From Reyranella sp. (lineage in GTDB: Bacteria > Pseudomonadota > Alphaproteobacteria > Reyranellales > Reyranellaceae): a stretch of 64,000 nucleotides of DNA. Location of the stretch: assembly GCF_030651995.1 (NCBI RefSeq), contig NZ_JAUSBN010000052.1:61824-125823 (forward strand). The letters run 5' to 3'. A model generated the notes under the pieces. It was not told where the DNA came from, ran no database searches, and saw nothing but the letters and a program-made list of their open reading frames with translations. Positions 13,698 through 39,415 of the stretch are shown here, in pieces. Position 1 is the stretch's first letter. Every line of letters begins with the position of its first letter. The position numbers and the translations under genes are program-made.

Positions 13698-14633
13698 CTA
13701 TTGCGGCCGCAGCAGGCGCACGGCCGCGGTCGAGAGGCCGATCGATACGGGCAACGTAAGGGCATCGTCGCCATCGATCTGGACCGGCTGGCGTCGCCGT
13801 TCGCCGGCATCGTTCAGGACGGAGATCCTGACCTCGCCCCCGGCAACGACGCGGTAGCCAGGCGTCCGCGGCAGCGCGCCCAGCACGAGGGCCGCGCCGA
13901 AGCGCAGCGCGTGCATCCAGCCCCAGCGCTCGAACAGGCAGACATGCAGCAGCGGTGCGTCGAGCGAGGCTTCCGGCGCCACGACATAGGGGCCGGCATA
14001 GTGACGGGCGTGCGTCACGATCACCGACGCGGCCTCGTAGTCCACGCCGTCGATCTCCACGCCATAGCGCACCGGCCGGTAGCGCCTTGCCTCGACCAGC
14101 GAGCGCCAGACATAGGCGATCTTGCCCCAGCGGCGCTTCAGGCCTGAGCTCACGCCCGCCACCACCTTGGCGTCGAAGCCGGCGCCGGCCATCAGGGAGA
14201 AGCAGCGCGGACGCCCGGCTCCACTGGCCTGGCCCGGACGCATCAGCACTTCGCGTCCGGCAGTGATCGCCTCGGCGAGCGCCGCGGCCGTCAAACCCAG
14301 CCCCAGCTCGTGCGCCAGCACGTTGGCGGTCCCCAGCGGCACGAGAGCGAGCGGCGGTGCCGTGGCGGCGCGGGCAGCGAGGCCGTTCACCACCTCGTTG
14401 ATCGTGCCGTCACCGCCGGCAACCGCAATCACGCCGTAGCGTCCGGCATCGCACTCTTCGGCATGGCGGCGGGCATCGCCCGCCGCCGCCGTCTCCACGA
14501 GATCGACCGTCCAGCCCTGGGCGCGCACACCGCGCACGACGGCATCGACCAGGCCACGCCGTCGCCGGCCGGCCGTCGGATTGAAAATGAGGAGAACCGA
14601 TTTCGCCGGTCCGGCGGTCGAGGCGAATGTCAT
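13698..14633 (-). CDS. diacylglycerol/lipid kinase family protein (YegS/DgkB-like)
   Basis: 'SVLLIFNPTAGRRRRG...VAGGDGTINEVVNGL...LALVPLGTANVLAHEL'. Confidence 0.9.
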   Translation of the reverse strand: MTFASTAGPAKSVLLIFNPTAGRRRRGLVDAVVRGVRAQGWTVDLVETAAAGDARRHAEECDAGRYGVIAVAGGDGTINEVVNGLAARAATAPPLALVPLGTANVLAHELGLGLTAAALAEAITAGREVLMRPGQASGAGRPRCFSLMAGAGFDAKVVAGVSSGLKRRWGKIAYVWRSLVEARRYRPVRYGVEIDGVDYEAASVIVTHARHYAGPYVVAPEASLDAPLLHVCLFERWGWMHALRFGAALVLGALPRTPGYRVVAGGEVRISVLNDAGERRRQPVQIDGDDALTLPVSIGLSTAAVRLLRPQ

Positions 14634-14644
14634 CGAACAGTCAC
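14627..14644 (+). promoter_or_regulatory. candidate PhoB (Pho) box
   Basis: ATGTCAT-CGAA-CAGTCAC vs CTGTCAT-N4-CTGTCAC: 12/14 in the heptamers; oriented toward the PlcP-like gene. Confidence 0.5.
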
Positions 14645-14757
14645 AACCGATACACCTCCACGCAACGGCTCCCATACACAATCCCATGCGTACCCTGCAA
14701 TCGTGCACAACATATTTTGTGTCGGTCGACCATTATCCACATGACCGTGCCTTTCCC

Positions 14758-15570
14758 ATGACACTTCACGACCGCAACAAGCCGGCCCGCCACAGGGCGA
14801 TCTTCCTGTCCGACATCCATCTCGGCACGCGCGGCTGCCAGGCCGAGTTGCTGCTCGACTTCCTGAGGCGCAACGAGAGCGAGCATCTCTATCTGGTGGG
14901 CGACATCGTCGACGGCTGGCGGCTGAAGCGGTGGTGGTACTGGCCCCAGGCTCACAACGACGTCGTGCAGAAGATCATGCGCAAGGCCCGCAAGGGCACC
15001 AACGTCGTCTACATCCCCGGCAACCACGACGAGGCGGCGCGGCAGTACTGCCAGCTTACCTTCGGCGACGTGCGAGTCGAGGACGAGGTCATCCACGAAA
15101 CACCGGACGGCAAGAAGCTGCTGGTGATTCACGGTGACCAGTTCGACGGCATCGTGCGCTATGCCCGCTGGCTCGCCATCCTCGGCGACTGGGCCTATGC
15201 CGCGGCGCTGCGCCTCAACACCACCTTCAACTGGGGCCGCCGCAAGCTCGGCCTGCCCTACTGGTCGCTCTCGGCCTACCTGAAGCACCGGGTCAAGAAC
15301 GCCGTGCAGTTCATCAACGACTACGAGAATGCGGTGGCCAGCGAGGCCCGCCAGCGCGGCGTCGATGGCGTCGTGTGCGGCCACATCCATCATGCCGAGA
15401 TGCGCATGATCGACGGCGTCCTCTACTGCAACGACGGCGACTGGGTCGAAAGCTGCACGGCGCTCGTCGAGGATTTCGACGGCCGCCTGCGCATCATCCA
15501 CTGGGCGGACGAGGTGGCCCGTCGCACGTCACGGCTTCCCTTGTCTCACGTTCAACTGGCGGCGGAGTAG
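14758..15570 (+). CDS. metallophosphoesterase, PlcP-like (annotated elsewhere as UDP-2,3-diacylglucosamine diphosphatase-like)
   Basis: 'AIFLSDIHLGTRGCQAELLLDFLRRNESEHLYLVGDIVDGWRLKRWWYWPQAHNDVVQKIMRKARKGTNVVYIPGNHDE'; paired with a glycosyltransferase as in plcP-agt operons. Confidence 0.82.
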   Translation: MTLHDRNKPARHRAIFLSDIHLGTRGCQAELLLDFLRRNESEHLYLVGDIVDGWRLKRWWYWPQAHNDVVQKIMRKARKGTNVVYIPGNHDEAARQYCQLTFGDVRVEDEVIHETPDGKKLLVIHGDQFDGIVRYARWLAILGDWAYAAALRLNTTFNWGRRKLGLPYWSLSAYLKHRVKNAVQFINDYENAVASEARQRGVDGVVCGHIHHAEMRMIDGVLYCNDGDWVESCTALVEDFDGRLRIIHWADEVARRTSRLPLSHVQLAAE

Positions 15571-15573
15571 CCC

Positions 15574-16626
15574 TTGCGCATTGCCATCGTTACCGACGCC
15601 TGGCGGCCCCAGATCAACGGTGTCGTCCGCACGCTCGAGACGGTCGCGCGCCTCCTTCGCGCCGAAGGCCACGAGGTCGAGGTTTTCGGTCCCGACCGGT
15701 TCCGTACCCTGCCCTGCCCGACCTATCCCGAGATCAGGCTGTCGCTGTTCCCGTCCTCGCGGCTCAGCCACATGCTGAACCTGTTCGCGCCCGATGCCAT
15801 CCATCTCGTCACCGAGGGTCCGCTCGGCTGGGCGGCCCGTGGCTTCTGCCGGCGCCGCGGCATTCCCTTCACCACCGCCTACCACACGCGCTTCCCCGAA
15901 TATGTCCGAGCCCGCATCCGGGTGCCGCTCTCATGGAGCTACGCCTTGGTGCGCCGCTTCCACGCTCCGTCGGCCGCAGTGCTGGTCGTGTCTCCGGCGA
16001 TCCGCGACGAACTCAGCGAGCGCGGCTTCAGGAATCTCGTGCCGTGGTCGCGCGGCGTCGACATCGCCGCGTTCAAGCCCCAGCCGCGCGAGCAGTTCAA
16101 GGAACCGCGACCGATCTGGCTCTATACAGGGCGCGTCGCCATCGAGAAGAACATCAAGGCCTTCCTCGACCTCGACCTCCCCGGCACCAAGTGGGTCGTG
16201 GGTGGTGGTCCACAACTGAAGTCGCTGCAGCGCCGCTACACCAACGCGCACTTCTTCGGCTCGGTCGACCCCGGCGAGCTCTCGTATCGCTATGCACAGG
16301 CAGACTGCTTCGTCTTCCCGAGCGTCACCGACACGTTCGGTCTGGTGATGGTCGAGGCACTCGCGTCCGGCGTGCCGGTTGCGGGATATCCCGTGCCCGG
16401 ACCGCTCGACGTCGTGACCGATCCGAAAGTTGGAGCCCTCGACGACGACCTTCGCAAGGCCTGCCTCGCCGCGGTGTCGCGTGATCCCGAGGATTGCCGT
16501 CGGCATGCGGAAACCTTCACCTGGGAACGCTGTGCGCGGCAGTTCGTGGAGGCGCTGCAGGTCATTCCGCGCAGCCACTGGCAGCCGCTTCGCAATCGCG
16601 TTCTGCCTGACGCCGCCGCGCCCTGA
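15574..16626 (+). CDS. glycosyltransferase family 4, Agt-like candidate glycolipid synthase
   Basis: 'MRIAIVTDAWRPQINGVVRTLETVARLLRAEGHEVEVFGPD...PSVTDTFGLVMVEALASGVPVAGYPVPGPLDVV'; 3 nt after upstream stop; TTG start. Confidence 0.85.
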   Translation: MRIAIVTDAWRPQINGVVRTLETVARLLRAEGHEVEVFGPDRFRTLPCPTYPEIRLSLFPSSRLSHMLNLFAPDAIHLVTEGPLGWAARGFCRRRGIPFTTAYHTRFPEYVRARIRVPLSWSYALVRRFHAPSAAVLVVSPAIRDELSERGFRNLVPWSRGVDIAAFKPQPREQFKEPRPIWLYTGRVAIEKNIKAFLDLDLPGTKWVVGGGPQLKSLQRRYTNAHFFGSVDPGELSYRYAQADCFVFPSVTDTFGLVMVEALASGVPVAGYPVPGPLDVVTDPKVGALDDDLRKACLAAVSRDPEDCRRHAETFTWERCARQFVEALQVIPRSHWQPLRNRVLPDAAAP

Positions 16627-37283: not shown

Positions 37284-38495
37284 TCAGTCCGGCAGCGTGA
37301 AGATCTCGACCGGCTCGCGGACACCGCGCAGGCGGTGCTTGCCCAGGGATTTCATCGGGCGCGGGCAGTCCTGGTTGAATTCGGCGGAGGCGCAGACGCG
37401 GACGCCGAGGGCCTTGGTGAGGCCCTGGAGCCGCGAGGCGCGGTTGACCGCGGAGCCGATGACGGTGAAGTCGAGCCGGTCCTCGGTGCCGATATTGCCG
37501 AAGGTGACCGTCCCGACGTGGAGCCCGATGCCGAACTTGATCGGCTCGGCGCCGGCCGTGGCGCGCGCCTCGTTGGCGGCTTCGGCATCGGCGATCAACT
37601 TGCGCGCGGCGTCGAGCGCGGCCGCTGTCACCATCGGCATGAACAGCGCATCCTCGGCCGGAAAATAGGCCATCACGCCGTCGCCGATGAACTTCAGGAT
37701 CTCGCCGCCATGTTTGGCGAGCGCATCGCCCACCAACTGGAAGTAGTTGTTCAGCAGTTCGAGCACCTGGTCGGGAGGCAGGCGCTCGTTGAGGCCAGTG
37801 AAGTCGCGCAGGTCCGAGAACCAGAGCACCGCCCGGATCTCCTCGCCGTCGCCGCGGCGGATCATGCCGCGCAGGATGCGCTCGCCGACCTGGCGGCCGA
37901 GATAGGTCTGGGCGACGGTCTGGGCGACGCTCTCCTCGATGTACATCTCGGTCACCGCGCCCATCATGTCGACCAGGCGCGTCAGGTCGTCGATGTCGGC
38001 GTCGCTGAAGCCGTCCTTACGATCGGTCGCGAAGGCCACGACCGGCAGCGGCCCGTCGCGGCGTACGCGCATCGGCAGCGAGAAGTAATCGGCGCCGCCG
38101 CCGTCCTTGACCTCGTGCAGAACGTGATGGTGCCGCTCGGTCAGGCCGTCGAGCCGGTAGCGGACCGGGGTGCCCCCTTCCCGCACCTCCTGCAGGGGGC
38201 TGCCGATATAGGCCGGGGTGAACTGAACGCCGTAGGCCCGGGTGATCGTCTCGGCCCGCTCGCCGCGCCGCCACAGGAAGCCCATCGCCTGGAGCTGCGG
38301 GTGGACGAGTTGCAGGCCGATATACGTGCGCCAGACCGGGATGCCGGCCTCGAGCACGCGATTCATGAGCTGCTCGAGGAAGGCGTCCGGTCTCCGGACC
38401 AGCCGGCCTTCCCGGATCAACCATTTCTCGACCGGCAGCAGCCGATCCGCTGCCGGCGCGGTAAAAGGAGACGCCTCGCTGCTCAGGAGCCGCTC
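37284..38495 (-). CDS. adenylate/guanylate cyclase domain-containing protein
   Basis: 'EEIRAVLWFSDLRDFTGLNERLPPDQVLELLNNYFQLVGDALAKHGGEILKFIGDGVMAYF'; start approximate. Confidence 0.87.
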   Translation of the reverse strand, partial: ERLLSSEASPFTAPAADRLLPVEKWLIREGRLVRRPDAFLEQLMNRVLEAGIPVWRTYIGLQLVHPQLQAMGFLWRRGERAETITRAYGVQFTPAYIGSPLQEVREGGTPVRYRLDGLTERHHHVLHEVKDGGGADYFSLPMRVRRDGPLPVVAFATDRKDGFSDADIDDLTRLVDMMGAVTEMYIEESVAQTVAQTYLGRQVGERILRGMIRRGDGEEIRAVLWFSDLRDFTGLNERLPPDQVLELLNNYFQLVGDALAKHGGEILKFIGDGVMAYFPAEDALFMPMVTAAALDAARKLIADAEAANEARATAGAEPIKFGIGLHVGTVTFGNIGTEDRLDFTVIGSAVNRASRLQGLTKALGVRVCASAEFNQDCPRPMKSLGKHRLRGVREPVEIFTLPD

Positions 38496-39379
38496 ACGAC
38501 GGCGGCGACTTCCTCGCCCGAGGTGCGGAAGACCCGGCTGGCCGAGACGTCGGCGATCTTCTCGATATTGTCGGCCACGTCCTCGATGGTCGGCGCGCGA
38601 CCGTCGATCCTGAGCCCCTCGGCCTCGCGATACTCGATGCGCGCGAAGGTGCCGGCGCCGGCGCTCCAGATGTCGCCGGTACGCTGGCACTGCTCGCTGC
38701 ACAGGAAGGCGACCATCGGCGAGACGAACTCGGGCCTGAGCTTGGCCAGCGCCTCGGGCGTCATCAGGCTTTCGGTCATGCGCGTGGCGGCGATCGGCGC
38801 CAGCGCGTTCATCATGATGTTGTACTTCTGGCCCTCGAGCCTGAGCGCGTTCATGAAGCCCACGACGGCGAGCTTGGCGCCGCCATAGTTGGACTGGCCG
38901 AAGGTGCCGTAGATGCCCGAGTTCGAGGAGGTCACGACGATGCGGCCATAGGCCTTGGCGCGCAGGATCGGCCAGGCGGCATGGGTCACATAGGCGGTGC
39001 CGAGGAAGTGGACCTTCACCACGAACTCGAAATCCTCGGTCGTCATGTTGTGGAAGGTCTTGTCGCGCAGGACGCCGGCATTGTTGACCACGATGTCGAC
39101 CGTGCCAAAGGCATCGACGGCGGTCTTCACGATGTTGGCGGCGGTCGCGGCCTCGGCGACGGAATCGTAGTTGGCGACGGCCTGGCCGCCCGCCGCCTTG
39201 ATCTCGTCGACGACCTTGTCGGCCGCGGCGTGACCGCCACCCTTGCCGTCGACCGCGCCGCCCGGATCGTTAACGACCACCTTGGCGCCGCGGCTGGCCA
39301 GCAGGAGCGCGTGCGCGCGGCCGAGCCCGTTGCCCGCGCCGGTGACGATGGCGACTCGATTGTCGAAGCGGATTGTCAT
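38483..39379 (-). CDS. SDR family NAD(P)-dependent oxidoreductase
   Basis: 'MTIRFDNRVAIVTGAGNGLGRAHALLLASRGAKVVVNDPGG', 'VNNAGVLRDKTFHNM'. Confidence 0.93.
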   Translation of the reverse strand: MTIRFDNRVAIVTGAGNGLGRAHALLLASRGAKVVVNDPGGAVDGKGGGHAAADKVVDEIKAAGGQAVANYDSVAEAATAANIVKTAVDAFGTVDIVVNNAGVLRDKTFHNMTTEDFEFVVKVHFLGTAYVTHAAWPILRAKAYGRIVVTSSNSGIYGTFGQSNYGGAKLAVVGFMNALRLEGQKYNIMMNALAPIAATRMTESLMTPEALAKLRPEFVSPMVAFLCSEQCQRTGDIWSAGAGTFARIEYREAEGLRIDGRAPTIEDVADNIEKIADVSASRVFRTSGEEVAAVVSGS

Positions 39380-39415
39380 TTCAGTGTCTCTCCTAAGGTC
39401 GTTCTTGCCAGAGTG

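Follow-up and report, generated by a model that had tools for sequence, protein, structure and literature searches.

A candidate PhoB-controlled plcP-agt operon for lipid remodelling in a Reyranella-type alphaproteobacterium

Overview

The 64,000-nucleotide stretch of Reyranella sp. DNA analysed here (the window) very probably carries a PhoB-controlled plcP-agt operon by which a Reyranella-type alphaproteobacterium would exchange phospholipids for glycolipids at low phosphate; we put the probability of this reading at roughly 0.87. The pathway and plcP-agt genes with Pho boxes have been described before, and the unusual element at this locus is a lipid kinase gene that stands back to back with the operon and has its start codon inside the Pho box. 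When phosphate is scarce, PhoB would bind the tandem heptamers at 14627-14666 and drive transcription from near 14687. PlcP would then cleave phospholipids into diacylglycerol and a phosphoalcohol, and Agt would place a sugar on the diacylglycerol, by analogy glucose, galactose or glucuronic acid, yielding phosphate-free glycolipids. With lesser weight, it is proposed that PhoB sitting on the box would block the divergent kinase and diacylglycerol would not be returned to phosphatidic acid. PhoB binding, the induction at low phosphate and the substrates and products of the enzymes are predictions made from the sequence.

Gene content and layout

The genes and their operon layout, the box, its register and its conservation can be read directly from the DNA and comprise the following features:

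13698-14633, reverse strand: kinase gene, encoding a YegS/DAGK_cat-type lipid kinase with a GGDGT motif (Pfam DAGK_cat and YegS_C)
14758-15570, forward strand: plcP, encoding a metallophosphoesterase, predicted intracellular phospholipase C (Pfam Metallophos, identities, tree)
15574-16626, forward strand: agt, with a TTG start, encoding a GT4 glycosyltransferase, predicted diacylglycerol glycosyltransferase (Pfam Glyco_transf_4 and Glycos_transf_1, motifs)
14627-14648, forward strand: 22-bp Pho box facing plcP and overlapping the kinase start codon at 14633-14631 (pstS-trained matrix, conservation in the genus)
14627-14666, forward strand: four heptamers, ATGTCAT, CAGTCAC, GATACAC and ACGCAAC, at 11-bp spacing, the last two weak (register as in pstS promoters)
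14675-14680, forward strand: candidate -10 element TACACA inside the invariant CATACACAATC, about 100% conserved and at the same 48-nt offset as in pstS; its promoter function is putative

All three open reading frames are intact and lie where an earlier note on this DNA had placed them, and their closest named relatives come from Reyranella and related MAGs. The arrangement is a stable one, since the divergent kinase adjoins plcP in 66 of 66 Reyranellaceae loci and a glycosyltransferase gene follows plcP in 65 of them. The trio of plcP, glycosyltransferase and kinase genes also occurs in Nitrospirillum and Azospirillum (Azospirillaceae).

Identity of the phosphoesterase and the glycosyltransferase

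Several lines of evidence support the assignment of the phosphoesterase as a PlcP-type enzyme, predicted to act as a phospholipase C on PC/PE. The alignment with characterised PlcP and LpxH proteins that the earlier note had suggested gave 54% identity to PlcP of Sinorhizobium meliloti and 57% to that of Pseudomonas aeruginosa, compared with 26% to Escherichia coli LpxH. The S. meliloti reference (L076) is presumably SMc00171/PlcP, an assignment based on the gene neighbourhood rather than on a locus tag; its gene adjoins those of an acyl-homoserine-lactone synthase and a LuxR-type regulator. The P. aeruginosa reference, whose gene precedes those for a glycosyltransferase and an adenylate cyclase, is presumably PA3219; in that species PA3218 lies directly 3' of PA3219 (PMC8528852). 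The titles of two database records may not fit their content: CP090106.1 (L076), 3.7 Mb long and named S. meliloti Ak57 pSymB, has plcP beside quorum-sensing genes and may be a mislabelled chromosome, and in NZ_CP137508.1 (L078), a P. aeruginosa plasmid record, the plcP-agt region looks chromosomal.

In the phylogenetic tree LpxH was split from the whole PlcP side with a support of 100/100, while the order inside the PlcP side was poorly resolved. The two LpxH family models gave the phosphoesterase 42.3 bits (cut-off 190.35) and 42 bits (cut-off 134), close to the 38-55 bits of two known PlcPs and far from the 388.9 and 364.3 bits of E. coli LpxH. The calcineurin-type metal motifs DxH, GD, GNHD, H and GHxH are present as SDIHLG, VGDIVDGW, GNHDE, HGD and GHIHH, and the alignment places GNHDE where LpxH sequences read GNRD. 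PlcPs are named UDP-2,3-diacylglucosamine diphosphatase in public records; hence the warning of the earlier note about this default name was justified.

The glycosyltransferase shares 52% identity over 327 residues with P. aeruginosa Agt1. It contains HTRFP at 104, GRVAIEKN at 186 and FPSVTDTFG at 248, which correspond to the Agt motifs GRVAxEKN and FPSxTDTFG with a His/Asp catalytic pair. The same donor motifs, with Asp replacing the usual GT4 Glu, have been reported for the diacylglycerol-using GTcp (PMC8231724), and the match includes this Asp-for-Glu exchange. These features agree with the Agt identity proposed earlier and support an Agt predicted to glycosylate diacylglycerol.

A Pho box in front of plcP

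The sequence ATGTCAT-CGAA-CAGTCAC at 14627-14644 agrees with the CTGTCA(T/C) heptamers at 12 of 14 positions and faces plcP, as had been noticed before. Its placement between the genes was wrong, because 14627-14633 forms the start of the kinase ORF, whose ATG lies at 14633-14631. A 22-bp PhoB matrix was trained only on 30 pstS promoters of the genus, all with clear Pho boxes. In the scan with such a matrix, another of the checks suggested earlier, 14627-14648 scored 16.2 bits and ranked first among 127,958 window positions, clearly above background, with the runner-up at 7.1 bits. Left-out pstS sites scored 16.7-36.4, every one of them higher than the plcP site. Across the genus, the best plcP site exceeded the 99% level of 200-bp background windows in 49 of 57 loci; the remaining eight, with scores near background, all have TTCAT in heptamer 1. 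The plcP loci of other genera of the family mostly gave low scores near background, and the upstream regions from P. aeruginosa and S. meliloti also scored low; as the spacer positions are lineage-specific, the matrix is uninformative outside the genus. The second-best matrix site in the window (39373-39394, 7.1 bits, forward strand) overlaps the beginning of an SDR-like ORF on the reverse strand (38483-39379) and is probably a chance match.

The register of the site is that of the pstS promoters. Both have four repeats at 11-bp spacing, then 8 nt and a hexamer, which begins 48 nt from heptamer 1 and reads TACACA at plcP and CCTAGA or CCTAGG at pstS; transcription is predicted to start near 14687. 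GTCACA and CATACACAATC are nearly invariant across the genus, while several spacer positions vary. The invariance of TCAT in heptamer 1 is not independent evidence, because TCAT doubles as the kinase start codon. A genome-wide search with the pattern TGTCATNNAACNGTCACA had three matches, against zero for its reversed control. Because the pattern was derived from plcP promoters, this result is partly circular, and the argument rests on the pstS-trained matrix. The genome also encodes a PhoB that passes the curated cut-off, and pstS, pstB and phoU belong to the same locus. Collectively, the independent matrix, the register and the conservation argue for PhoB-type control of plcP, as far as sequence can.

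The stretch from the Pho box to plcP holds further conserved elements. One is a second, likewise strongly conserved block at 14697-14725 (GCAATCGCGC..GACAGATTTTGTG), which is situated between the candidate -10 element and plcP and is possibly the site of another regulator. A structured RNA leader was considered and is not claimed, because the consensus fold was weak (-1.27, where column shuffling gave a mean of -0.38 with an s.d. of 0.75) and the plcP leader had no match in Rfam. At 14733-14741, TTATCCACA has the exact sequence of the E. coli DnaA box; it is the sole copy in the window, where 0.08 would be expected, and in this position, shortly before plcP, it is largely conserved in the genus. 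Finally, a short upstream ORF (14741-14761, MTVPFP*) ends in an ATGA that overlaps the plcP start codon, which makes translational coupling with plcP possible. Such an ORF was found in 25 of 58 genus loci, and in 29 of 58 the corresponding ATG shares the reading frame of plcP; the ATGA overlap follows in part from plcP itself starting with ATGA.

The divergent kinase

The kinase has the DAGK_cat and YegS_C domains, but no NCBIfam lipid-kinase model reaches its cut-off on this protein. A search of the genome for proteins with the DAGK_cat domain, as distinct from DgkA-type kinases, found this one and no other. Inspection by eye recognised no promoter for its gene. Since the Pho box covers the kinase start codon, PhoB binding could block the kinase, and PhoB may switch it off rather than letting it recycle diacylglycerol. 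Taken further, we tentatively suggest a two-way Pho box in which PhoB would turn plcP-agt on and the only DAGK_cat kinase off, directing diacylglycerol to glycolipid and not to phospholipid in a double-membraned family that has apparently lost lipopolysaccharide. A live rival is joint induction of the kinase and plcP, with the kinase recycling diacylglycerol as the earlier note had proposed. In Pseudomonas putida BIRD-1, low phosphate raises DagK together with PlcP (PMC5082522), and the conservation of the kinase beside plcP would fit this rival as well. However, the heptamers face plcP, the start codon of the kinase gene lies within the box, and the BIRD-1 DagK may be of another kinase type than the divergent kinase here, hence we regard co-induction as possible rather than probable.

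Comparison with known plcP-agt systems

The closest parallel is the P. aeruginosa pair plcP-agt1 (PA3219-PA3218; PMC8528852), where plcP is likewise followed directly by a GT4 agt and preceded by a Pho box, and the proteins are 57% and 52% identical to those described here. It differs in that the divergent lipid kinase is missing, a helix-turn-helix gene lies upstream of plcP, and a second glycosyltransferase, Agt2, is present as well. S. meliloti PlcP (SMc00171; 54% identity) has the same motifs and is named in PMC3596328 as a phospholipase C of the Pho regulon, but neither a glycosyltransferase nor a kinase gene adjoins it. In Agrobacterium tumefaciens, plcP and agt are atu1649 and atu2297 (PMC3972451). 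The earlier note had described PlcP and Agt as a pair in Sinorhizobium/Agrobacterium and in marine bacteria. This holds for the marine bacteria (PMC4796936), whereas the rhizobial part needs correcting, because the S. meliloti gene has no adjoining glycosyltransferase gene and atu1649 and atu2297 are apart.

Adjacent plcP-agt genes are documented in P. aeruginosa (PMC8528852), in Pelagibacter and other marine bacteria (PMC4796936) and in type II methanotrophs (PMC9239053). The marine type 2 plcP clusters resemble our locus in the order of plcP and agt and in their predicted Pho boxes, but a kinase is unmentioned in that survey (PMC4796936). GTcp of Pelagibacter HTCC7211 has the same donor motifs and the His104/Asp dyad (PMC8231724). 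In Methylosinus trichosporium OB3b plcP and agt are adjacent as well, and a mutant lost GADG and grew slowly at low phosphate; a divergent kinase is not described in the excerpt on which these statements rest (PMC9239053).

Apparent lack of lipid A genes and its implications

LpxI, LpxC, LpxB and LptD had no match in the genome from which the window stems (99.53% complete), in searches that each found the well-known control genomes. LpxC was likewise absent from 51 of 51 good Reyranellaceae genomes. Among all 75 genomes of the family, one full LpxC match lies on one contig of a 75% complete genome and is possibly a contamination, and a second genome has a fragmentary match under the cut-off. 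Reyranellaceae thus appear, from gene content, to be without lipopolysaccharide; a non-exhaustive literature search found nothing on such a lack in this family.

This background might suggest that plcP-agt acts constitutively to maintain the envelope of a bacterium without lipopolysaccharide and that phosphate control is only part of its regulation. The additional conserved, unexplained sites that follow the Pho box in front of plcP could be read in the same way. Such a role is improbable, because the box score and register match pstS, and some high-quality genomes of the family, including the complete single-contig G052, do without plcP, which indicates that plcP is not essential for the envelope. 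A true LpxH with lipopolysaccharide genes as neighbours can be dismissed despite the LpxH entries among the PDB matches, the weak similarity and the public names, because the scores, the identity, the tree separation and GNHD in place of GNRD contradict it and, with LpxC, LpxB, LpxI and LptD missing, an LpxH would have no pathway to serve. The earlier judgement that the default LpxH name is wrong was correct.

The phosphate-controlled plcP-agt operon therefore remains the preferred reading. It adds Reyranellaceae to the lineages with a plcP-agt route, supported at the level of the promoter, and provides a case in which the whole genome contradicts a default LpxH label. The arrangement of box and kinase offers a testable model of how diacylglycerol might escape re-phosphorylation during phosphate starvation. 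Moreover, given the apparent lack of lipopolysaccharide in this lineage, its membranes may depend more on glycolipids than those of its relatives.
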